Below, piece after piece: positions 938 to 57,248 of a stretch of DNA of 64,000 nucleotides (within the stretch, counting starts at the first letter, position 1; every line of letters starts with the position of its first letter). The translations under genes were made by a program, and so were the position numbers. Below the pieces are notes generated by a model. The model did no database searches. It saw only the letters and a list, made by a program, of their open reading frames with translations, and had not been told where the DNA came from. The DNA is taken from assembly GCA_015143295.1 (NCBI GenBank), contig CM026567.1:8946416-9010415 (forward strand), read 5' to 3'. Origin of the DNA: Tetracentron sinense. Its lineage: Eukaryota > Streptophyta > Magnoliopsida > Trochodendrales > Trochodendraceae.

Positions 938-1057
938 CTATTGGTAACCCTCTACTGGAGGTTCCTCCAAAGGTTCCTCGACGTACTCCTCTTCCATCCA
1001 TGGACCAGGAGCACAAACATCAAATGGCACAGCAGCTCCCTCAGAACCTGCCGACAT
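938..1057 (-). CDS. Micro-ORF in LTR A (39 codons), conserved across gypsy LTRs
   Basis: An ATG at 1057 opens a 39-codon frame that begins MSAG, then carries AAVPFDVC, then PWMEEEYVEEP, and stops at 938. Element I has a frame of exactly the same length (36025-36144) with about 28 of 39 residues the same by my count, and many differences are conservative (V/I, M/V, E/D). Related frames occur in LTRs C, H, J, O and P. It is acidic, with no membrane segment. Function unknown. The peptide-level similarity between LTRs that otherwise differ strongly suggests it was translated, but this is inference. Confidence 0.5.
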   Translation of the reverse strand: MSAGSEGAAVPFDVCAPGPWMEEEYVEEPLEEPPVEGYQ

Positions 1058-1094
1058 AAGAAGTACGGCTGAGCATGGAATACTCAGCAGGTAC
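1046..1094 (-). promoter_or_regulatory. Twin-hairpin leader module, LTR A
   Basis: In sense (minus) direction the arms GCTGAGTAT and ATGCTCAGC enclose a TCC loop. A second stem follows at once (GCCG...CGGC) and contains the ATG of the micro-ORF in its 3' part. The same pair of stems recurs in nearly all gypsy LTRs of the window (see findings). Confidence 0.55.
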
Positions 1095-4956: not shown

Positions 4957-5067
4957 TCACCCATAAGGCCACATGTCCAGGCCCCTAATATCGGTATGAT
5001 GATCCCAAGCAAGCTCCTGCTCAACTCTTAGTTCCGGAGCACGATCGTCCAACCTGTAACCTACCAT
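4957..5067 (-). CDS. Micro-ORF in LTR C (36 codons)
   Basis: ATG at 5067, MVGYRLDDRAPELRVEQE, ending DMWPYG and a stop. The same DMWPYG ending occurs in the corresponding frame of LTR L (around 55811-55940). Weaker match to the PW-x-EEEY core than in A, I or O. Function unknown. Confidence 0.35.
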   Translation of the reverse strand: MVGYRLDDRAPELRVEQELAWDHHTDIRGLDMWPYG

Positions 5068-5424
5068 TACAGTTCGGCTGAGCATTGAATATTCAGAATA
5101 TACAAACTACTAACTAACAATGTTATAAAACATTAACATATAACATAGTGTATAGTTCATCATATAACATGCAAAATTAGAGTACAGAAATCAAATTGAA
5201 TTAACAAGTGTATACATTGAATCATAACGTATTCCAATATCTTATGAGTTCCTTATGAATCTTATGAGTCTTGTGAGTTCCTTAGTAGTCTTATTATGAT
5301 ACTTATGAGTTCCTTATTAGTCTTATTCGTCTTATGAGCTTTCGTGTAAAACCATAAATCTTAGGAGGTCTTAAGAGAATCAATAGCTTATGAGTTGGTA
5401 TGAGTCCTTATGAGTCGTGTGAGC

Positions 5425-13166: not shown

Positions 13167-14862
13167 TGAAATTTCTTATTTCATTGAACTCTTTGATCTA
13201 GAGGGGGGGGGGGTGAATAGGTCTTCTTAAGGTTTTCTGCCAATTTTAATTTTATGCAATCACACACAATCAATCTCACATGAACACACGAGAATTTTAC
13301 GTGTAAAACCCTTCCGGGAAAAACCACGTGACCTAGTCCAGTACAAAATTCACTATGAGAAGATTTAAGCAATACAAGACTCGAATCTTACCCAACCGGA
13401 CACGACACACCGTTCCTCGGTATTGATTCCTTAACTTGTAAACCACAAACACAACACGTTCGATCTCCGCTATCGCGACCCAAAATACCCCCTAGGAGTT
13501 AAGGATACTTTGACTCGTGACCTCCATATCATACCTCCAGTATGATACATAAGGCACACGTGGAAACCTGTCAGAGTACCTGAATATACATAGCGAAAAT
13601 GAAATACAATGCACAGCGGAAAATAAAATACTAAACATAGCTGAAGCAAAATGAATACTCCTATAACTTGGCTCAAGTAAGAACCAACAAGTATACATGT
13701 GTGAGAAACCCAAAAGTGGAGTGGACAAACCCCACACTCACATAACAAAATGACACAAGTTCTAAGTCGGTCGATCAACAGAAATCGAAGTCACGACTCC
13801 TATCTAAAGCACCATTGTCATGATAGTGATCCATGGAAGGCTCCGGGTCACGGTACTCTTCCTCGACCCAAGGTTCTTCGCCACACAAATCTAATGGAAC
13901 CCGAGCACCTGCCGATCATAAAAATATCGACTGAGCATGGAATACTCAGTGTATACAAACTAATAACAATAAAGCGGTTAGGCATGGAGCATACAAGACA
14001 TGGAGAATGAAATCCGTAAATTCCTTAAAGCATGGAAACCGTGAAAACGTATGTGAGATAATATTCGAAACCAAAACTGTAACCGTGTGAGTCAATCGAT
14101 AATCATAGCCTAATGAGTTCTTGTGCGTTCATGGAGTTACTTAGAGTCATTATGATCCGTAGAGACATAGAGCATAGAGCAATAACCTTAGAGCATTTCC
14201 ATAGAGCATAACCTTACAGATCTTAGAGCATTTCATTGTGATCCGTGGAGCTTGTGAGACGATCTTAGAGCATTATCATAGAGTTTCCTTGTGAGCATGG
14301 TATGATCCTTAGAGCTTGTGAAACGATCTTAGAGAAATCATAGAGTTACTTAGAATCATTCATTATTCGTCTTTTCGTGAAAAACCTTTGTTTGTACTTG
14401 GAGAAATCCATGGAAACCATCGGTTTATGTGAGACATGCGAGCATATGCACTTAATAAGAGAAATCATCGTATTTAAGCATAGAATCCCTTAGAGGTATT
14501 TTATCAAACACTTAGAGTGCATCATAATAGTAACCTTCATCCAAGTATATAATCACACCTTTTCATACATAAAATCAATACATATAGATAGGGCATAGAT
14601 AAGAAGAATCATAATTAGTAACTAATAGGATTGCAAGATTGTAGTAGAGTGTATCTACCTTAGAGAAATCAATGAGTTTGACTCCCAATGGCTGGAACAA
14701 GCAAGAACAGTGAGTTCTTGGTTGGAAAACACCAAATGGAAAAGAAGAACTTGATCTTCCACAAGCTTGAACGATCACCAAGGTCCTCTCCTCCTTCTCT
14801 TCTTCAAATCCCTCAAAAACAATGCACAAAGGGTTTGTGAAACCCTAAGGCACGAACCCAGC

Positions 14863-14873
14863 CCTTTTATAGG
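14863..14873 (-). promoter_or_regulatory. Candidate TATA box of LTR G
   Basis: Sense sequence CCTATAAAAGG, about 920 bp upstream of the hairpin module. The same site is in K at 21418-21428. Confidence 0.55.
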
Positions 14874-14924
14874 CAAAGGGTGATGTTTAAAGTCTTAAAC
14901 ACCCTTAATGAAGAAAATCTGCGT

Positions 14925-15115
14925 ATGACCGATCGATCGGTGGTATGGATCGAGCGATCGGTGGCTTACCGGTCGATCGGTGTTATGACCGGGAGATCGG
15001 TCAAAAACACTCTCTGGAATTTTTCCCCATACAAAAAAGTTGACCGTACGACAGCTATCGAGCGATCGGTAGTTGACCGATCGATCGCAGGTAATGACCG
15101 AGCGATCGGTCGACC
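14925..15115. repeat. Palindromic cassette zone of LTR G (GATCGATCGGT type)
   Basis: Seven or so short units such as GACCGATCGATCGGT, each self-complementary or nearly so, spaced by about 10-25 bp. Located upstream of the TATA box in U3. Confidence 0.85.
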
Positions 15116-15764
15116 CCTGCTTTGCTGAAAAACCTTGTTTACACCACTCGAATCTTCCCCAATGCACTTCCAACACTCTTTTATGCTTTCAACACATTCC
15201 CTAAGGACATATAGACCCATTGGAACATATACGCCATAATTTCAAACACATATATTAACATAAGACCCATAAGTGTACAAAACCACACTTGGGCACTATT
15301 CACACACTATTCATTCTTAGTGAAATGAAATTTCGGGGCTCTACATCCGCAACAGTAGCTCCGGTTCCTCACCGACCAATCCTGCTCAAAGTGATCAACC
15401 ACGATCTCCGAAGATTGATCTCCGTCTTTGATGGCTTTAGATCAAGCCAACCAATGCTCACAGTAGAGCACACTATGGGTTTCAGGGTTTAGAAAAGCTC
15501 TTGGGTGATCTCATCAAAGGTTGAGGATCATCTAATGCTAGTTCATAATAATGTGAGTGAAAAGCTTGCAAACCCTAGAGAAAGCTAATGGGGAGGAAGA
15601 GAGATAATCTCCAGAGTTTAGATGAACTCTAGAGTGACCCTAAGATGCTCTAACAACTCTCCAAAAGATGGGATTCACGGACTAGGGAAGTCCCATTAAA
15701 CAAAAGAACAACCCAAGAAATTTAGAACATGCTAAAAACACATTTAGAATGTTTTTCCATATCA

Positions 15765-16283: not shown

Positions 16284-17358
16284 AATATGAATGATAAAGC
16301 CAGACATTGGGCTGGTCAAGGGTAGTGCATATCCTTAGGATATGTCATGCTTGGCTCATAAGGAAAACAAGCAAATTGATAAAGCTGGACATCGGGCAGG
16401 TCAAGGGTAGGGCATATTGCAAGATATGTCATACCTGGCATACAAGAAAACAAGGAGGTTGGTGTACCCTTTTCTATATATATATTTCGCTGAATGGAAT
16501 TTACATTCCTGGCTCACAAGTCACTTCAAGGGCACTAACCTCTGGCTCACAAGAAACAAGCAAGTCAAGTCAAGAACATGTCAAGAACATGACAAGAACA
16601 AGCAAGAAAAGTGATTCCAAGCAAGACAAGATAATCATGTGTGATTCTCACGAACAAGACCAAGACAAGAACAAGTTTTCAAACATTGACAAGCAAGTTT
16701 TGAAAGAAGCACGAAAGGCTATTTTCAAGAATAAGACATGACTTTTAAAGTACGAGTTTTACCAGAGTTTTTGCATTCATCCAAGCATATCATGATTATT
16801 ACATTGCTTTACTTTCAATGCTATGAATGTCATATGTTGCTATTTTTGTCTAAATTGATGTGATGAATTACATCCTGTTGCCTTTGTGTGATTGTTATTA
16901 CTGTGGTTAGCTAGTAGCTTGTACTCGCTGAGTATTCCATACTCAGCAATACTTTTATGTCGTTAGGTACCGTGGATGCCCTCAACCCTGAGCTTTGGGT
17001 TGAGGAGGAGTATGTAGAGGAGAGGGAGCCTTCTATCTCGATGTAGTCGCAGGAGGATAGAGATCGCGACATGTGGCCGTATTTAGATTATTGCTGAGCA
17101 TAGTAGGGTCTATATTTTGTTTGTGTTTTGATAGGTGGGCATGTCGACCTTTATTGTTTATGTTTTATGTATAAACTTGGAATACTGAGATGGGTTATGG
17201 AAAGAAAAAGAAAAAGTTGAATCTCGCTTCCGCACTCATGTTTTAGCTTCCGTGCTCTGTATCATGTATGGATTTAGAATGCTTTACCTTGTTCATTCAA
17301 GGACAGTTTGGCAGGTATGAATAGTCACTCCTAAAGTATCCCTTAACTCTTAGGGGGT
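16284..17358 (+). mobile_element. Element H: LTR right part (Ty3/gypsy)
   Basis: R-U5 half of a plus-strand gypsy LTR: an about 85-bp direct repeat with GGTCAAGGGTAG...ATATGTCATACCTGGC (16290-16455), the hairpin module at 16928-16950, a micro-ORF at 16957, and the TTAGGGGGTATT terminal block near 17350. The sequence left of it fits the end of the H segment at 53988 on the minus strand (compare the continuous LTR P near 57830-58060), which is part of the evidence for the inversion. Confidence 0.75.
16957..17046 (+). CDS. Micro-ORF in LTR H (29 codons)
   Basis: ATG at 16957, MSLGTVDALNPELWVEEEYV, then EEREPS and a stop at 17044-17046. It matches the MSAG...PWVEEEYVEE core of micro-ORFs in A, I and O, immediately after the hairpin. 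Function unknown. Confidence 0.45.
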   Translation: MSLGTVDALNPELWVEEEYVEEREPSISM

Positions 17359-18374: not shown

Positions 18375-18638
18375 TGTCGTGACCCAAAATACCCCCTAGG
18401 AGTTAGGGATACTTTAGCTCGGGCCGCCGTATCATACCATCCTGTATGACACATAAGGCACATATACTTACCATCCTATCAGAGTAAACAAGTTGTAAAA
18501 CATAGCGGAAACGATTTATAATAATATACTCCTATAATTCAGTCCAAGTCTGGACCAACATAACATATCCAAAAATATGGAGTGGACAAGTCCCACTCTC
18601 AACATACTCAAAATATCAGTATTATCTCCCTCCCTCTC

Positions 18639-18821
18639 TCAACAGAAATCAAAATCGAGCCATTTATCCAGCGATCCATCATCCTGGTAGTGGTCCATAG
18701 AGGGCTCCGGATCATAGTAGTCTTCCTCTATCCAAGGCTCCGTGCCATAGACATCAAATGGAACACGTGCACCTGCCGAAGTCAATAGTCCGCTGAGCAT
18801 GGAATACTCAGTGATATACAA
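18639..18821 (-). CDS. Micro-ORF in 3' LTR of J (60 codons)
   Basis: Opens MYITEYSMLSG over the hairpin, then SAGARVPFDVYG, EPWIEEDYYDPEPSMDHY and LDFDFC. The twin copy in the 5' LTR (27800-27982) keeps the frame and nearly all residues. The SAG...PFDV...PW-x-EE core is shared with A, I and O. Function unknown. Confidence 0.5.
   Translation of the reverse strand: MYITEYSMLSGLLTSAGARVPFDVYGTEPWIEEDYYDPEPSMDHYQDDGSLDKWLDFDFC
18793..18811 (-). promoter_or_regulatory. Hairpin of leader module, 3' LTR of J
   Basis: Sense CTGAGTATTCCATGCTCAG, the conserved first stem with TCC loop. Copy in the 5' LTR at 27954-27972. Confidence 0.5.
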
Positions 18822-19803
18822 ACTACTAACTAACGGTGGATAATATCATAAACATGCATAAGCTTAGAGAACAACATTCGTGAAAGTAGTTACAAAAATC
18901 CTTTTCTTAACAATATTCGTGTGAAATCAAAACCAGGTAAATCTTGTCATATGATAATCATGTTCTTATGAGTTCTTGTGAATTCTTACGAAAGTTGGGA
19001 TTCCTTGTGAGCATGCGAGGATCTGAGTATGCATGATTTTCTTGTGAACTTGCGAGCTTGTGAACTTGTGAGCTTGTGAGACATGACTACTTGTGAGTCC
19101 AAGTATAGTGGGATTCCTTGTGAGCTTTGAAACGATCTTAGAACTTGTTACTTACCAACCCATAGTTTGGCTTTATCACTTGTGAGAATTCTTTTAACAA
19201 AACCTTGCTTATGAACTTTTAAAAATACCTTTCTTGTGAGAAATCATCGAATCATACGAGACTTAATAACATCATGCTAGACTTGTGAACATACATTGCA
19301 TATAATACTTGTGAATATTGTGGTGATCTTAGAAAGCTTGTAAACATGGCATCTTATTTATAGAAATCAATAATGGTGATAACTTACATTCCATATACCA
19401 ATCATCATCCAATTCCATCCAAGAACAACCTTAACATAGTGTTTTGCCTTTAAAATAATAGCACAAGGTAGGTAGTAGAGTGTATCTACCTAAAATGGAA
19501 GTTTTTACACTTCTGTGAAACAAGAATCAAGCTTGAGGAAGCTTGATTGAAGCTTTGAGAAAGCTGGAAAATCTGAAATCCCGTTTCCAAAGACACTAAC
19601 AGAATTTTCTTTGGAAACTTCTAAGTTTAAGAATTACTTTGGGGATAAAATCCACAGGAAGCAAGAAGGACTCTTCCTTTGGTGGAAAACATGAACTCAA
19701 GAACACCCAAGAACTACCTTAGCTTCCTTCTTCTTCTTCCCTTCCAATCTCTCAAAAAATCTAAGCTTAGGGTTTGTAAACCCAAAGACACAAATTTAGG
19801 GTC

Positions 19804-19814
19804 CTATTTATAGC
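19804..19814 (-). promoter_or_regulatory. Candidate TATA box, 3' LTR of J
   Basis: Sense GGCTATAAATAGG. Twin in the 5' LTR at 28953-28965. Confidence 0.5.
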
Positions 19815-19914
19815 CTAAAGGTTGGAAAAATATCCCAAAAGATCTCAGAAAATATCCCAAAATATCTCCCAAGGTCGGTGGAACAGTTCTGAACGTTTTT
19901 ACCATCATCTGGGT

Positions 19915-19985
19915 TGAATTCGTCGATGAATTTCAGCCCCCGAGCAACTTCATCGACGAATTTGAGCCCCCTTCAGCAATTTGTC
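19915..19985. repeat. Palindromic cassette zone of LTR J (TTCGTCGA type)
   Basis: Units such as TTCGTCGATGAATTTCAGCC with TCGTCGACGA as the ideal palindrome. Copy in the 5' LTR at 29065-29135, where the GTCGACGAA form is better kept. Confidence 0.8.
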
Positions 19986-20026
19986 GTCGATATTGGATGA
20001 CAGGCCCCGGTTTTTCCCACATTAGT

Positions 20027-21902
20027 TGTCGCGACCCAAAATACCCCCTAGGAGTTAAGGATACTTTGACTCGTGACCGCCATATCATACCTCCAGTATG
20101 ATACATAAGGCACACGTGGAAACCTGTCAGAGTACCTGAATATACATAGCGGAAACGAAATACAATGCACAGTGGAAAAATAAAATACTAAACATAGCGG
20201 AAGCAAAATGAATACTCCTATAACTTGGCTCAAGTAAGAACCAACAAGTATACATGTGTGAGAAACCCAAAAGTGGAGTGGACAAACCCCACACTCACAT
20301 AACAAAAGACACAAGTTCTAAGTCGGTCGATTAACAGAAATCGAAGTCACGACTCCTATTTAAAGCACCATCGTCATGATAGGGATCCATGGAAGGCTCC
20401 GGGTCACGGCACTCTTCCTCGACCCAAGGTTCTTCGCCACACAAATCGAATGGAACCCGAGCACCTGCCGATCATAACAATATCGACTGAGCATGGAATA
20501 CTCAGTGTATACAAACTAATAACAATAAAGCAGTTAGGCATGGAGCATACAAGACATGGAGAATGAAATCCGTAAATTCCTTAAAGCATGGAAACCGTGA
20601 AAACATATGTGAGATGATATTCGAAACCAAAACTGTAACCGTGTGAGTCAATCGATAATCATAACCTTATGAGTTCTTGTGAGTTCATGGAGTTACTTAG
20701 AGTCATTATGATCCGTAGAGACATAGAGCATAGAGCAATAACCTTAGAGCATTTCCATAGAGCATAACCTTAGAGATCTTAGAGCATTTCATTGTGATCC
20801 GTGGAGCTTGTAAGACGATCTTAGAGCATTATCATAGAGTTTCCTTGTGAGCATGGTATGATCCTTAGAGCTTGTGAAACGATCTTAGAGAAATCATAGA
20901 GTTACTTAGAATCATTCATTATTAGTCTTTTCGTGAAAACCTTTGTTTGTACTTGGAGAAATCCATGGAAACCATCGGTTTATGCGAGACATGCGAGCAT
21001 ATGCACTTAATAAGAGAAATCATCGTATTTAAGCATAGAATCCCTTAGAGGTATTTTATCAAACACTTAGATTGCATCATAATAGTAACCTTCATCCAAG
21101 TATATAATCACACCTTTTCATACATAAAATCAATACATATAGATAGGGCATAGATAAGAAGAATCATAATTAGTAACTAGTAGGATTGCAAGATTGTAGT
21201 AGAGTGTATCTACCTTAGAGAAATCAATGAGTTTGACTCCCAATGGCTGTAACAAGCAAGAACAGTGAGTTCTTGGTTGGAAAACACCAAATGGAAAGGA
21301 AGAACTTGATCTTCCACAAGCTTGAACGATCACCAAGGTCCTCTCCTCCTTCTCTTCTTTAAATCCCTCAAAAACAATGCACAAAGGGTTTGTGAAACCC
21401 TAAGGCACGAACCCAGCCCTTTTATAGGCAAAGGGTGATGGTTAAAGTCTTAAACAGCCTTAATGAAGAAAATCTGCGTATGACCGATCGATCGGTGGTA
21501 TGGACCGTGCGATCGGTGGCTTACCGGTCGATCGGTGTTTTGACCGAGAGATCGGTCAAAAACACACTCTCTGGAATTTTTCCCCATACAAAAAAGTTAA
21601 CCGTGCGACAGCTATCGAGCGATCGGTAGTTGACCGATCGATCGCAGGTAATGACCGAGCGATCGGTCGACCCCTGTTTTGCTGAAAAACCTTGTTTACA
21701 CCACTCGAATCTTCCCCAATGCACTTCCAACACTCTTTTATGCTTCCAACATATTCCCTAAGGACATATAGACCCATTGGAACATATACGCCATAATTCC
21801 AAACACATATATTAACATAAGACCCATAAGTGTACAAAACCACACTTGGGCACTATTCACACACTATTCATTCTTAGTGAAATGAAATTCCGGGGCTCTA
21901 CA
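20027..21902 (-). mobile_element. Solo LTR K (Ty3/gypsy)
   Basis: TGTCGCGACCC at 20027 to CGGGGCTCTACA at 21902, flanked by ttagt and tcagt (one mismatch). It splits the 3' LTR of J at a site that is continuous in the 5' LTR (about 29170). Nearly identical to solo LTR G, so both are recent products of one family. It has the cassette zone at 21480-21672, TATA at 21418-21428, the hairpin at 20487-20505 and the micro-ORF core at about 20330-20470. Confidence 0.93.
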
Positions 21903-22483
21903 TCAGTATTTTGAGTATAACTTTTGACTCGTTTATCCGATTTTGACGATTCAGTTGCGTTGGATTCTTCTTTCTAAGTGTTACAACTTTCATGTTTTAT
22001 AAATTTTCTAATTCATCTGTCTTCATAGACCAAATTACCCTTAAAGCTGACTGGTCTGAAAATAGAATTCAGCAGCCCAGATTTTCAGTAGACTCGTTTC
22101 TGGAAATCTGACGTTTGACCCATCCTCGACTCAAAATCTGGAAATGTGATAAACATGAACCTCAAATAAAGTTTCAATACCTTTCCAAAAATTTAAGAAT
22201 CACTCGATTCCAATCAGCGGTGAGAATTCTAGACCTCGTCAAAGTTGAGGGTATGTTTATGCATTCCTTTCTTTGACACTCAGACTATACCATACTCTCA
22301 CTTTTCATTTATCCCAAACCCCCAGAACACTTTCCATACATATTTTGATTCATTTAATACCTCATTTCATTATAAAACATGAACCCATAACTTCATTAAG
22401 GCTTTAGGCCTTGAAGGCACTATTCACAGCACTATTCACACACTATTCACATGAATAGTGAACCTAAATTCCGGGGCTCTAAT

Positions 22484-27535: not shown

Positions 27536-29755
27536 TGTCGTGACCCAAAATACCCCCGAGGAGGTAGGGATACTTAAGCTCGGACCACTGTATCATACCA
27601 TCCTGTATGACACATAAGGCACATATACTTACCATCCTATCAGAGTAAACAAGTTGTAAAATATAGCGGAAACGATTTATAATAATATACTCCTATAATT
27701 CAGTCCAAGTCTGGACCAACATAACATATCCAAAAATATGGAGTGGACAAGCCCCACTCTCAACATACTCAAAATATCAGTATTATCTCCCTCCCTCTCT
27801 CAACAGAAATCAAAATCGAGTCGCTTATCCAGCGATTCATCATCCTGGTAGTGGTCCATAGAGGGCTCCGGATCATAGTAGTCTTCCTCTATCCAAGGCT
27901 CCGTGCCACAGACATAAAATGGAACACGTGCACCTGCCGAAGTCCATAGTCGGCTGAGCACGGAATACTCAGTGATATACAAACTACTAACTAACAGTGG
28001 ATAATATCATGAACATGCATAAGCTTAGAGAATAACATTCGTGAAAGTAGTACAAAAATCCTTTTCTTAACAGTATTCGTGTGAAATCAACACCAGGTAA
28101 ATCTTGTCATGTGATAATCATGTTCTTGTGAATTCTTGCGAAAGTTAGGATTCCTTGTGAGCATGCGAGGATCTGAGTATGCATGATTTTCTTGTGAACT
28201 TGCGAGCTTGTGAACTTGTGAGCTTGTGAGACATGACTACTTGTGAGTCCAAGTATAGTGGGATTCCTTATGAGCTTTGAAACGATCTTAGAACTTGTCA
28301 CTTACCAACCCATAGTTTGGCCTTATCACTTGTGAGAATTCTTTTAACAAAACCTTGCTTATGAACTTTTAAAAATACCTTTCTTGTGAAAAATCATCGA
28401 ATCATGCGAGACTTCATAACATCATGCTAGACTTGTGAACATACACTGCATATAATACTTGTGAATATTGTGGTGATCTTAGAAAGCTTGTAAGCATGGC
28501 ATCTTATTCATAGAAATCAATAATAGTGATAACTTACATTTCATATACCAATCATCATCCAATTCCATCCAAGAACAACCTTAACATAGTGTTTTGCCTT
28601 TAAAATAATAGCACAAGGTAGGTAGTAGAGTGTATCTACCTAAAATGGAAGTTTTTACACTTCTGTGAAACAAGAATCAAGCTTGAGGAAGCTTGGTTGA
28701 CGCTTTGAGAAAGCTGGAAAATCGGAAATCCCGTTTCCAAAGACACTAACAGAATTTTCCTTGGAAACTTCTACGTTTAAGAATCACTTTGGGGATAAAA
28801 TCCACAGGAAGCAAGAAGGACTCTTCCTTTGGTGGAAAACACGAACTCAAGAACACCCAAGAACTACCTTAGCTTCCTTCTTCTTCTTCTCTTCCAATCT
28901 CTCAAAAAATCTAAGCTTAGGGTTTGTAAACCCAAAGACACGAATTTAGGGTCCTATTTATAGCCTAAAGGTTGGCAAAATATCCCAAAAGATCTCAGAA
29001 AATATCCCAAAATATCTCCCAAGGTCGGTGGAATAGTTCTGGATGTTTTTACCATTGTTTGGGTTGAATTTGTCGACGAATTTCAGCTCTCGAGCAACTT
29101 TGTCGACGAATTTGAGCCCCCTTAAGCAATTCGTTGCCGAAATTGGATGACAGGCCTCCGGTTTTTCTCACTTTGTTATTTTAAGTATAATGTTTGACTC
29201 GTTTATCCGTTTTTGACGATTTAACTTGCGTTGGATTCGTATTTCAAAGGGCTACAACTTTCATGTTTTATAAATTTTCTAATTATTCTATATTCATAGA
29301 CCAAATTGCCCTTAAATCTGACTGGTCTGAAAATCGAATTCAGCAGCCCAGATTTTCAGTAGACTCGTTTCCCGAAATCTGACGTTTGACCCATCCTCAA
29401 CTCAAAATCTGAAAATGTGATAAACATGAACCTCAAATAAGGTTTCAATACCTTTCCAAAAATTTAAGAGTCACTCGATTCCAATCAGCGGTGAGAATTC
29501 TAGAGCTCGTCAAAGTTGAGGGTATGTTTATGCATTCCTTTCTTTGACACTCAGAGTATACCTTACTCTCACTTTTCATTTATCCCAAACCCCCAAAACA
29601 CTTTCCATACATATTTTGATTCATTTAATACCTCTTTTCATTATAAAACATGAACCCATAACTTCATTAAGGCTTTAGGTCTTGAAGGCACTATTCACAA
29701 CACTATTCACAGCACTATTCACATGAACAGTGAACCTAAATTCTGGGGCTCTACA
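27536..29755 (-). mobile_element. Element J: 5' LTR (Ty3/gypsy)
   Basis: TGTCGTGACCC at 27536 to GGGGCTCTACA at 29755, 2220 bp, uninterrupted. It contains the micro-ORF (27800-27982), hairpin (27954-27972), TATA candidate (28953-28965), cassette zone (29065-29135) and U3 block (29176-29235). Confidence 0.92.
27800..27982 (-). CDS. Micro-ORF in 5' LTR of J (60 codons)
   Basis: Copy of the 3' LTR frame: MYITEYSVLSR, SAGARVPFYVCG, EPWIEEDYYDPEPSMDHY, LDFDFC. In the RNA it would lie downstream of the TATA box by about 1 kb, ahead of the primer-binding site, so it could be read from the 5' leader. Function unknown. Confidence 0.5.
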   Translation of the reverse strand: MYITEYSVLSRLWTSAGARVPFYVCGTEPWIEEDYYDPEPSMDHYQDDESLDKRLDFDFC

Positions 29756-35720: not shown

Positions 35721-36024
35721 TGTCACGACCCAAAACCCACCCTAGGAGTTAGAGTGAATCTTGGATGACTTATCATGACTTGCATGACTTGCTTGACAAA
35801 CCATCCTGCAAAATACGTAGAGCATATACAATAGAGGACAATAACAGTGGAAGTATACTTTAACGTGGCACAGCAGAAGTCTAACAAAACCTCTATGTAT
35901 ATATGTGCATGATCCAAGTTGATACAAAAAGGAAATCAAAACTAAGAAAGCATAGACAGGCCCGCTAAAATACATGAATATAACTCTCACGCTCACCTAC
36001 AATCTCTCACTTAGAATCTACCAC

Positions 36025-36144
36025 CTAATAGTGACCGTCTACGTGAGGTTCCTCCATAGGTTCCATAACATACTCCTCCTCCACCCAAGGGCTCGGAGCA
36101 CAGATATCGAAAGGAACAGCCGCTCCGCTATCACCTGCCGACAT
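36025..36144 (-). CDS. Micro-ORF in LTR I (39 codons)
   Basis: ATG at 36144: MSAGDSGAAVPFDICAPSPW, then VEEEYVMEPMEEPHVDG and a stop. Same length as the frame in LTR A, with mostly conservative differences. The start codon sits in the second hairpin. Acidic, no signal peptide or membrane segment. Function unknown. Confidence 0.52.
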   Translation of the reverse strand: MSAGDSGAAVPFDICAPSPWVEEEYVMEPMEEPHVDGHY

Positions 36145-36155
36145 AAGACGTACGG

Positions 36156-36174
36156 CTGAGCATGGAATACTCAG
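36156..36174 (-). promoter_or_regulatory. Hairpin of leader module, LTR I
   Basis: Sense CTGAGTATTCCATGCTCAG. The flanking second stem (GCCG...CGGC) covers the micro-ORF start. Confidence 0.5.
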
Positions 36175-37469
36175 CAGGTACCAAACACTAACCAACAGTC
36201 ATAATAGAGCAATAACAATATAAAGTAGGAAGCAATTGATATCAACAGGAAGCAGTATTTGTATTTCATGCTTGCATCACAGAAAACCGATAAAACTCTT
36301 GAAATCTTTGTGTTCTTGTCTTGACTTGAAAACATTCTTTTCGTGCTTGAAAACTAGTCTTGACATGTTTTGTCATATTGGTCTTGTCGAGTCATACTTG
36401 TCTTGTCATTCTTGTCATGCGTGTCATGTCATGTATCATGCTTGCTTGCTTGGAAAATAAACATGTTCTTGCTACTTGTGAGGGAGGGAAGGCCCCTCTT
36501 CCTAAATGAGAAGCAACTTGTGAGGGAGGGGAGACCTCTCTCTAACGAAATGCATTGAATGTGACATGCATGCTTGGGGTGTTCTTGTTCGTGTCAAAAG
36601 CGAGGGAAAACGTATCGTAAGATATGCCCTACCTCTATTTACCAACCCTTTCATTTGGCCTTGTCATGGTGTTCGTGAATCGGGAATAAAACCTTGAAAG
36701 CAAACATGGTGTTTAATGCTTGAAGATCCTACTCGTGGACTACATGCCATGCTCGTGGATTCATGTATAATTAAGGATGACATTGGCATAGAAAGCATTT
36801 GCATTTAATCAAGAATTAAATCAAACAATTAAGCATTTAATCTATCCACATGCCATTCTAGGAAGTAAAGGAATTCATACATGCATCTTCTATGAATAAA
36901 TCTCATCTTCTTCATTGAGGCATTTCATCAAACATTTGGTATGTGCATTATGGTTAATCCTAAGTCTTGGATTTCTAGGTGTGTTAATGCTCACACCATA
37001 CATGTGTGTTCGTTTTTAGTACAATGCCCTCCCCATTTCGTTCATTACATAACCTACACATGGCATCCAATCGCCCATACACACTCCATCCATACATCCC
37101 AACCATTCTTATTCTTAGAAATTAGGGAAAACAAAGAAAAAGGAAGAAAAGAGAGAAGAAGGTGAACTAGGAGGGTAGTATAGGGTACCGACCTTGATTT
37201 GGGTTGAAGAACACCCTTAATGTGGATTTCCAACTTGAGGAAGAATCCCTCTTTGGGTTTGAGGAACTCTAGTTGCTTGAGGAAGGTCCTTTGCTTGAAA
37301 ATCTTCAAGAATGAGCCTCCCTTGATCTCCAATCCAAGCTCCTTTGGAGGATTTTCCCAAAATCTTCTTCTCCTTTCTCCCCTCTTTCTCTCCTCTCTAG
37401 GTTAGAAATACCTCAAATGAGGATCCCTAACAATACAAGGGTTTAAGACCCTCAAATCTAGCTTCAGTT

Positions 37470-37735
37470 ACCGCATGTGATCAATCGCACGCTTATTTGC
37501 GGTCGATCGCAGGTCCTTGCGATCGATCGCACCTGGATGCGATCTATCGCACATGAACCCAAACACATTGGTCTAATTTCCCCCTGCATGCGATCGATCG
37601 CAACTCTTGCGATCGATCTCAGATCCCTGTGATCTATTGCACCTGGGGATCCATCTATCGCATATGGCCCAGAGAGTTTAGGACTCATTTCGCCTGCATG
37701 CGATCGATCACACCTGACTTGCGATCGATCACACC
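37470..37735. repeat. Palindromic cassette zone, 5' LTR of I
   Basis: TGCGATCGATCGCA-type units, the partner of the zone at 30015-30275; individual units have diverged at CG positions, as expected for methylated DNA. Confidence 0.85.
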
Positions 37736-38095
37736 CTTTAGATTTTTTTGTTTTCTCCCAGTTTCCCTTACTTTGGTAATCCGACCATAACTTTTGACTC
37801 AGTTGTCCGATTTGGACGATTCAACTTGCGTTGGATTCTTCTTTTGAAGGGGAACTTTCTTGGCATTTTAAAATTTCCAATTTCTACTTTATTTATTGAC
37901 TAAATTGCCCCTGAAGTTGACTGATCCACAAATGAGATTCAGTAACTCGGGTTTTCGACATATCCGACTTAGTGATACTACTTCTTAATACTTAGAGTTC
38001 TTCAAATTTTTTCATTTCATAGAAATAGGAGGATTACAAAGGCATAATTCCTTGGCACGTGTCCCAATACATGGCAAAAGTTTCGGGGCTCTACA

Positions 38096-44038: not shown

Positions 44039-44194
44039 TCAGTAGTCAGCCCCATGGGGCCAATGGTCTAAGTCCTTTACCTCAGCCTGAGGCTCAACTA
44101 ACGAATCCTCATATGGTTCTTTCTCACCGTAGTCCTCCTCAACCCAAGGACCCGAGACACAAATGTCAAACTGGACTCGTGTACCTGCCGACAT
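44039..44194 (-). CDS. Micro-ORF in solo LTR O (51 codons)
   Basis: ATG at 44194: MSAGTRVQFDICVSGPWVEE, then DYGEKEPYED and an end with DLDHWPHGADY. The first half matches A and I; the DxDxWP ending recalls the DMWPYG end of C and L. Acidic. Function unknown. Confidence 0.48.
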   Translation of the reverse strand: MSAGTRVQFDICVSGPWVEEDYGEKEPYEDSLVEPQAEVKDLDHWPHGADY

Positions 44195-44204
44195 AAAAGT
44201 ACGG

Positions 44205-44223
44205 CTGAGCATGGAATACTCAG
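44205..44223 (-). promoter_or_regulatory. Hairpin of leader module, solo LTR O
   Basis: Sense CTGAGTATTCCATGCTCAG with outer G-C pair, then a second stem GCCG...CGGC containing the micro-ORF start. Confidence 0.5.
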
Positions 44224-55320: not shown

Positions 55321-56207
55321 TAGTTAAGTATATACAATGAAGAATGTGATGCTTGTCCATCCATTTCATAGTTCAGATGCTAGCCAAATGAACTAAGTGA
55401 AGCTTGATTCTCATAAGAAACTCATAAGACTCATAAGACGCATAAGACGTATAAGAAACTCTTAAGACTCATAAGGAACTCTCAATAACTCATAAGGATC
55501 TAATAAAGAAAAGAAAAGGAAATTCATAAGGAACTCACAGGATTAAGGAACTTACAAGACTAAAGAACTCATAAGTTAAAGGCTCATATGAGACTCGTAA
55601 GGCTTATAAGATATCTGATTTTAATCTCAATGTATGCTTTGTAATGTGAGAACTCAAAGTGGTTAAAAGTATACTTATATACTCGGAATTAAGTTATTGC
55701 ATATTATTCTGATTGTTGTGACAAACTGTATATGTGTTTCATGTAAATGTTTTACAACATGAGTATCTAGTAGTTTGTATATGCTGAGTATTCCACACTC
55801 AGCCGAACTGTTACTTCGGCAGGTACAAAGGTAGATACACGTGCTCTAGAACCATGGACCAAAGAGGTATATGCTGAGGATCCGCTAAGCAGTTATCATG
55901 TAGATGGTAGGGGCTTTGACATGTGGCCTTATGGTTGAAGATTAAGTGAGAGCGACATGTATTTGGGTTTTCACTGGGGGTTTTTCCATTGGACTTGAGT
56001 TGGTAACTAAAGTGATGGATTTTCTGTACAGGGTTAGTTTCTATTTATGCACAAGTTTAGTATGAGTTTAAGTGGGCCCTGTTTTATATAAAAGATAATT
56101 TTAGGTTCACTATTTACAATGCCTTAAATGCTCTCTCATAGGATGGTTTGAATGTAAGTCACGATGCCAAAGTCTCATAACTCCTAGGGGGATTTTGAGT
56201 TGCGACA
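55321..56207 (+). mobile_element. Element L: LTR, R-U5 part
   Basis: Plus-strand sequence ending TTTTGAGTTGCGACA at 56207, then tcatg (the reverse complement of catga at 40306-40310). It carries the hairpin at 55784-55802, a perfect second stem GCCGAA...TTCGGC (55802-55820), and a micro-ORF core ending DMWPYG (about 55811-55940). Confidence 0.8.
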
Positions 56208-57092: not shown

Positions 57093-57212
57093 CTATGGCC
57101 ATCGGCCAGCCCCTAACATTTGGCTAACCATCCAAATAACCTCCTGCTCTCCCTGAGCTACCTCGATCCAAGGGACCAGAGTCCATATATCGCATAATGT
57201 ACCTGCCGACAT
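57093..57212 (-). CDS. Micro-ORF in LTR P (39 codons)
   Basis: ATG at 57212: MSAGTLCDIWTLVPWIEVAQ, then GEQEVIW and GRWP at the end. Same length as in A and I, but the middle has drifted. Function unknown. Confidence 0.4.
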   Translation of the reverse strand: MSAGTLCDIWTLVPWIEVAQGEQEVIWMVSQMLGAGRWP

Positions 57213-57220
57213 AAAAGTAT

Positions 57221-57248
57221 GGTTGGGTATGGAATACTCAACGAGTAC
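57221..57248 (-). promoter_or_regulatory. Hairpin of leader module, LTR P
   Basis: Sense arms GTTGAGTAT and ATACCCAAC around TCC. Compared with the usual arms, the second pair has changed from C-G to T-A on both sides, a compensatory change. One inner pair is mismatched. Confidence 0.5.

Follow-up and report, generated by a model that had tools for sequence, protein, structure and literature searches.

A short acidic reading frame with codon-level constraint in the LTRs of plant Ty3/gypsy chromoviruses: a candidate last exon of an accessory protein

Analysis of a 64,000-nucleotide stretch of Tetracentron sinense DNA (contig CM026567.1; hereafter the window, in whose numbering all positions are given) indicates that a short acidic reading frame, carried inside the long terminal repeats (LTRs) of nested retrotransposons, is under purifying selection at codon level. 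We put at roughly one in two the probability that, in a large group of plant Ty3/gypsy chromoviruses, the LTRs contain the last exon for an accessory protein that is small and acidic. A terminal spliced exon is favoured because selection on the frame ignores the ATG and respects an upstream AG/GT boundary (the slash marks the junction).

Eleven LTR copies of one locus were found in the window, of which C, H, P and Q are degenerate. Their common layout is a hairpin, CTGAGTATTCCATGCTCAG, followed by a T-rich linker, GGCAG/GT and an acidic frame of ~36-51 codons with the pattern G..PFD.C..PWvEEEY..EP..LDrWPY..Y and a stop; the boundary reads TTAG/GT in H and GTAG/GT in C. Full copies carry WPY..Y or DFDFC at the C-terminus before the stop. 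The hairpin had 10 matches in the window at no more than 3 mismatches, against 0.01 expected, and copy P carries a poorer eleventh. Inside the window, copies A, I, O, J, K, H and Q cross-matched by tblastn at E values from ~4e-3 to 1e-22.

Seven of the copies, all on the minus strand, retain the frame in good order. In copy A it begins with the GGT that follows AG and closes with the stop (938..1048), with an ATG at 1057 and the hairpin core at 1069..1087. Copy I is arranged in the same way at 36025..36135 (ATG at 36144, hairpin core 36156..36174), as is copy O at 44039..44185 (ATG at 44194 and a second in-frame ATG in the hairpin; core 44205..44223). Copy J1, in the 3' LTR of element J, has its frame at 18639..18773 and its core at 18793..18811, lacking an ATG at MSAG and having one in frame within the hairpin; in J2, from the 5' LTR of J (frame 27800..27934, core 27954..27972), that hairpin ATG is GTG. 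The solo LTRs K1 (frame 13775..13909, core 13931..13949) and K2, which lies in J's 3' LTR (frame 20331..20465, core 20487..20505), have no in-frame ATG. The first-pass annotation, which had reported a peptide-conserved micro-ORF recurring in many LTR families, was right about A (1057-938), I (36144-36025), O (44194-44039) and J (18782-18639 and 27943-27800, all minus strand), and K1 (13915-13775) and K2 (20471-20331, minus strand) are two further good copies; C and P, which it also listed, are weak.

Among the degenerate copies, H lies on the plus strand (frame 16966..17046 after TTAG/GT, core 16928..16946) and over 16957-17046 reads PELWVEEEYVEE and then an in-frame TAG. Copy Q, also on the plus strand (55813-55938), keeps PWTKEVY in a frame at 55822..55938 after GGCAG/GT (core 55784..55802) and ends in DMWPYG and a stop. 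The same ending closes copy C on the minus strand (frame 4957..5061 after GTAG/GT, core 5078..5096), although C, once taken for a copy of the pattern at 5067-4957, has neither PFD nor PWxEEEY. Copy P (57212-57093, minus strand) has the MSAG and PW ascribed to it and lacks EEEY; its frame after GGCAG/GT occupies 57093..57203, and its hairpin at 57222..57241 has 4 mismatches to the window's common form. An exact length of 39 codons, attributed to A, I and P, holds for A and I counted from the ATG and is not general (46-47 codons in J and K, 51 in O); in the decayed copy P it is probably a coincidence. Nor is the ATG of MSAG general: in K1 and K2 TGA stands directly 5' of TCG GCA GGT, and J and Q read ACT there.

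The window consists of LTR retrotransposons nested at high density. Element I has its 5' LTR at ~35721-38095 on the minus strand and a PBS at ~35710; its second LTR copy is split by element J, which is inserted within it. The LTRs of J occupy 27536-29755 and 18375-20026 plus 21907-22482, the latter interrupted by the solo LTR K2 (~20027-21902). A second solo LTR, K1 (~13471-15345), has the target duplication TCCGC. Nested insertions, K2 in J and J in I, span positions 17914-38095. When pieces were scanned, J gave RVT_1, RT_RNaseH_2, Integrase_H2C2, SH3_Tf2-1 and Chromo, and I gave the same set without a scored Chromo; protease, reverse transcriptase and integrase are encoded in the pieces of I. 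By reverse transcriptase and H2C2 integrase, and in J a chromodomain at the pol end, the carriers I and J are Ty3/gypsy chromoviruses. In each LTR, ~280-420 bases separate the acidic frame from the 3' end. The pol frame stops before the 3' LTR, without entering it, in J, in I and in one K copy.

Codon selection was first apparent in pairs of window copies. Copies A and I differ at codon positions 1, 2 and 3 by 9, 4 and 15 changes, counted without any peptide-based choice, and J1 and K1 by 8, 5 and 23. With differences placed at random, the 23 third-position changes of J1-K1 were reached with frequency 1e-5 and the 15 of A-I with frequency 0.0085. Scanning of whole LTRs in every phase returned the ORF in its own frame as the best window for A-I (p = 1.9e-3), J1-K1 (p = 5.9e-6) and J2-K2 (p = 1.4e-4), values uncorrected for overlapping windows; that for A-I (2e-3) would not, alone, survive correction for window number. 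In the same scan of I-J2 the ORF was not the best window and there was no third-position excess, nor was there such an excess in the pair C-Q. The two LTRs of J differ by 2, 2 and 2 changes, and K1 and K2 by 2, 2 and 1. The earlier statement that the LTRs are far more diverged than the peptide proved too strong for A versus I, in which LTR DNA is ~79% identical over 1.3 kb and the peptide 74% over 38 residues. The evidence lies in codon periodicity and not in overall identity.

Further loci were drawn from the genome to which the window belongs (1.16 Gb). A search for the hairpin plus GCAGGT, which ignores coding, found 10,444 and 10,482 sites on the two strands (20,926 together) and none for the reversed control. 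Forty loci were taken as a blind sample from 100 listed places on one contig, chosen by eye for distinct matched strings. The frame was open for at least 36 codons in 27 of the 40, compared with 3 and 0 of 40 for the other two frames. From these loci and eight window copies, 23 disjoint pairs were formed, taking in 46 of the 48 loci; pairs below 3% divergence were excluded, here as in every pair count. Differences in the ORF numbered 112, 113 and 181 at the three codon positions (rates 0.144, 0.146 and 0.234, p = 8e-6), whereas the flank from +150 on was flat in the same pairs (151, 146 and 134, p = 0.56). Third positions in the blind sample evolve at the flank rate, and first and second positions at about two thirds of it, a slowing that is diluted by decay after insertion.

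Estimates of omega pointed in the same direction. NG86 values were 0.03-0.31 in 11 of 15 hand-picked between-family pairs, with dS saturated in the other four, and 0.69 for J1-J2. A GY codon model gave 0.186 for 35 sequences and 43 codons, with a program warning that parameters exceeded sites and with an input (blind loci with at least 33 open codons and seven window copies) that favours open copies. When the K peptide was searched against its own genome, the 150 hits scored, of 24,316 first-look candidates, were 98% identical, mostly with 46 open codons. A count over 27 pairs made up mostly of peptide-picked loci (165, 104 and 305) was set aside as biased; it drew on 55 of 96 sequences after removal of near-duplicates, with L032, L038, L039 and L040 dropped and L034, L042 and the window's copy P left out because they scored low. 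Six blind loci (L095, L130, L138, L142, L150 and L151) stop after LDR, where other copies carry Trp, and these stops are probably TGG turned to stop through methylation decay. Coding selection on the stretch, as first proposed, is therefore supported by the window pairs, the blind sample and the ATG-less R loci described below; neither the dN/dS near 1 nor the lack of codon periodicity that had been named as grounds against it was observed.

These data bear on two explanations in which no peptide need be made today. The first, which we consider very improbable, is that the stretch is conserved as nucleic acid, RNA or DNA, serving as a hairpin, a promoter or a signal for splicing or packaging, with the peptide as a by-product. 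Hairpin and GGCAGGT are indeed conserved at the nucleotide level, but within the frame third positions are free and first and second positions slow, with a flat flank. RNA structure as the sole cause of the frame's conservation is ruled out by that periodicity and flank; the explanation is refuted for the frame and stands for the hairpin. The second, to which we give equally little credence, is that the frame is the relic of an old LTR gene, now neutral and kept by common descent and recent bursts. Changes between J1 and J2 do look neutral, as after any insertion, and many copies are broken. Between families, however, first and second positions are slow while third positions run at the flank rate, numerous K copies keep the frame open, and similar peptides occur in ENA contigs, so that for the time before the last bursts the relic is contradicted.

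The hairpin itself was examined over 32 loci. Its 9-pair helix is paired in 92% of cells, and one inner pair is U-A in 22 loci and A-U in 9. The covariation score was 0.224, compared with 0.180 in shuffles, of which 1 in 500 scored as high, and it stayed at or below 0.09 on sliding. Pairing is weak in the outer 4 pairs (61%), and the 3 pairs showing double changes in this set were no more than shuffles gave. An RNA hairpin is, on this pairing, likely and moderately supported. It lies at a near-constant distance from the frame, and the linker varies in length. By eye, a second hairpin can be seen ~36-130 bases past the stop in A, J and O with its stem letters changed (GAGTGG..CCACTC in J, AGGTGG..CCACCT in O, GCGG..CCGC in A). 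Rfam gave no family in the window at gathering scores.

The start of the selected stretch was considered next. Of the 40 blind loci, 30 carry an in-frame ATG 3' of the nearest stop ahead of the frame, as do 28 of 49 peptide-picked loci; the place and frame of the ATG relative to the hairpin vary. A separate clade, R, has a different hairpin, GAGTAACNNGTTACTCAG (175 and 201 matches, reversed control 0), and reads TTG where other families read ATG. Twenty of 100 listed R places were picked by eye for distinct strings and for a linker length leaving no in-frame ATG, and all 20 lacked one. Nine pairs, covering 18 of the 20, gave 40, 23 and 66 differences (p = 1.5e-5), with p = 0.68 in the flank. 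Of the 20 R loci, 10 had at least 36 open codons in frame 0 and 11 had them in frame 1, so open length alone is no evidence there. As ATG-less loci show constraint, codon selection does not depend on the ATG; the description of a micro-ORF defined by its ATG gives way to one in which GGCAG/GT is kept. R linkers come in two lengths differing by one T, the shorter bringing an ATG into frame (MTLLSAG) and the longer not, and L115, a relative of the ATG-less loci L110 and L036, carries an ATG in frame within its hairpin. Given these shorter-linker members and L115, recent loss of the ATG in some lineages is possible.

Ranked by acceptor-like score against 65-260 AGs, the AG/GT boundary came in the top 3 in 21 of 27 loci and in the top 5 in 25 of 27, with assumed acceptor weights and with AG/G itself partly fixed by the locus-finding procedure. 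The score was still higher at the boundary in the blind loci, but those loci had been found by GCAGGT. G+C content goes up at the boundary, from 0.43 to 0.55, and down at the stop, from 0.48 to 0.41. Comparison of the loci shows that AG/GT, rather than ATG, marks the start of the selected stretch, and the boundary looks like a 3' splice site, from which we infer splicing. A strong conserved splice donor was sought in LTRs, leaders, gag starts and internal pieces of I, J and one K copy, and none was found. A phase-1 junction with the gag N-terminus was rejected, the needed GT not being conserved by eye.

Under the last-exon reading, the frame would be entered by splicing at AG/GT from a donor elsewhere in the element, in phase 1, the upstream exon supplying one base of the first codon. 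Some translation may also begin at the ATG in copies that have one. The product would most plausibly support expression of the element itself, like the LTR-encoded accessory proteins of some retroviruses.

Transcription could not be anchored by TATA-like sites: some families have them 3' of the ORF and A has one at -128, but the K and R copies with a PBS gave none. The stretch may accordingly belong to U3 or to R/U5, and the place in the leader ahead of gag given by the first-pass annotation is putative. In A, I and J, 22-26 further ATGs separate the ORF from the gag ATG. A T-rich site ending in TCAG, TTNTCTCAG/GA in most cases, occurs shortly 5' of the gag ATG (MRRG.RGRG) in the window leaders of A and I and in L004, L007, L015, L039, L041, L048 and L058, and resembles the 3' splice site of a leader intron. 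A second, conserved acceptor-like site was seen near the LTR end, at ~+329 from the frame start in A, I and K and at +331 in J1; in I it reads TTTTGCAG/GATGG. Overall, acceptor-like sites other than the boundary recur at ~+278 to +331 in several families, as well as just 5' of the gag ATG.

Usable peptides, 33-52 residues long, were obtained from 39 of 60 blind loci. On average these contain 12.1 D+E, 2.2 K+R and 5.6 aromatic residues in 40, and 30 of the 39 have an aromatic residue or His at the final or penultimate position. Segments that are acidic, aromatic, proline-containing and disordered can act as activation or docking tails. This composition, which includes proline, suggests that the peptide is probably a disordered acidic-aromatic tail of activation or docking type. 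Six peptides compared with Pfam had no match up to E = 1.

Relatives were found in ENA contigs. A profile of six window peptides retrieved P0002 from a 753-base ENA contig (E = 2.6e-3 in 5.8 billion); with P0002 and more window peptides added, it retrieved P0003-P0005 (8e-13 to 3.5e-9) and then P0006 (6.4e-3). As a single query, P0005 recovered the family in the window's own genome from E = 2.2e-6. P0004-P0006 begin with or contain MAG, and the frame upstream of P0004 reads YPLSIRILSH, which may be the hairpin as translated. In the viral collection, the first profile gave no confirmed relative and one hairpin pattern no match; a locus found there with the ENA profile (L001), with 16 residues matched on a phage-like contig, was taken as chance. 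Among bacterial and archaeal genomes, 80 stretches were obtained and none was confirmed.

The main rival to a spliced last exon is a conserved-peptide upstream ORF (uORF), started at an ATG (MSAG, MAG or the hairpin ATG) in the 5' leader, whose peptide would act in cis on gag translation, for example by C-terminal stalling or by steering re-initiation. What gives it this place is that an ATG exists in most copies and that the C-terminal end next to the stop is conserved. We nevertheless consider it unlikely. The in-frame ATG of 30 of 40 blind loci and the MAG of P0004-P0006 would be accounted for, as would the aromatic or His ending, and the many ATGs ahead of gag imply that gag needs a special route; uORFs of this kind are known in plants (PMC5902531). 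Purifying selection on the peptide, as expected of such a uORF, was found, but the AUG start is not conserved along with it: selection extends to loci without an in-frame ATG, and the ATG occurs at differing places and frames relative to the hairpin. Moreover, K, with many near-identical copies, has a stop right before the frame. Most MSAG ATGs also have T at -3, a weak context.

It is more doubtful still that initiation is structure-directed or non-AUG, with the hairpin placing ribosomes so that translation starts near GCA GGT without an AUG. The near-constant upstream distance of a hairpin whose 9-pair helix is so well paired fits this, as do the retention of GGCAGGT without the ATG and the TTG of the R loci. 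In K, however, TGA stands one codon before GCA with no near-cognate codon close by; the linker also varies in length, and the outer helix is weak. To our knowledge, such initiation is not established for cellular retrotransposons, which also counts against it.

Taking the last-exon reading further, and a shade more tentatively, we propose that the locus is an extra, undescribed chromovirus gene: an LTR last exon with a hairpin-flanked 3' splice site, encoding an acidic protein or tail, selected across many families, found in more than one sequence source, and a plant analogue of retroviral LTR accessory genes. More than 20,000 exact hairpin plus GCAGGT sites occur in one genome, and those that were read usually have the selected coding stretch behind them. 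The peptide, if produced, would be a new product of one of the genome's most abundant element groups, with a testable role in expression, splicing or silencing escape. The hairpin, GGCAG/GT and PWvEEEY together provide a mark for searches in other plants. Such micro-exons escape gene finding from ATG to stop, and codon-level tests are needed.

Plant retrotransposon LTRs are usually treated as non-coding. Some retroviral LTRs encode accessory proteins, such as MMTV Sag, a separate protein inside the LTR. Here, too, a selected frame lies inside the LTR and separate from gag-pol, and its protein, if made, would probably arise through splicing and independently of gag-pol; the differences are that the carrier is a plant chromovirus, that the frame has 36-51 codons, and that splicing and a U3 position are putative. 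We know of no sequence relation between the acidic frame and MMTV Sag.

In open-licence papers, whose silence is weak evidence of absence, we found no reading frame or peptide of this kind in the LTRs of plant elements, the only direct match being a review on MMTV; work on retroelement-derived peptides or six-frame peptidomics (PMC6022598, PMC9070638) may bear on the question. The first-pass annotation held that a protein encoded within an LTR, in the leader ahead of gag, is not known from described gypsy families; in those papers this stands for a separate LTR reading frame, and is qualified by the centromeric chromoviruses of CRM group A, in which the polyprotein runs on into the 3' LTR (PMC3059260). 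Conserved-peptide uORFs of plants (PMC5902531) resemble the frame in being short conserved peptides, possibly in a 5' leader and conserved up to the stop codon, whereas the present frame has no constant ATG, resides in the LTRs of a mobile element and has a putative leader position. Spliced RNAs are known from BARE1, Ogre, Bagy2 and sunflower elements (PMC3735527, PMC7730604), where splicing likewise serves to express part of an LTR retrotransposon; there, the introns lie in or between the gag, pol and env regions, and the portions of these sources consulted mention no LTR-encoded exon. CRM elements share with the present carriers a plant chromovirus LTR that holds coding sequence under evident function. 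In CRM, however, that sequence is the C-terminus of pol at the LTR start, whereas here pol ends before the LTR in J, I and one K copy and the frame lies ~300-420 bases from the LTR 3' end.
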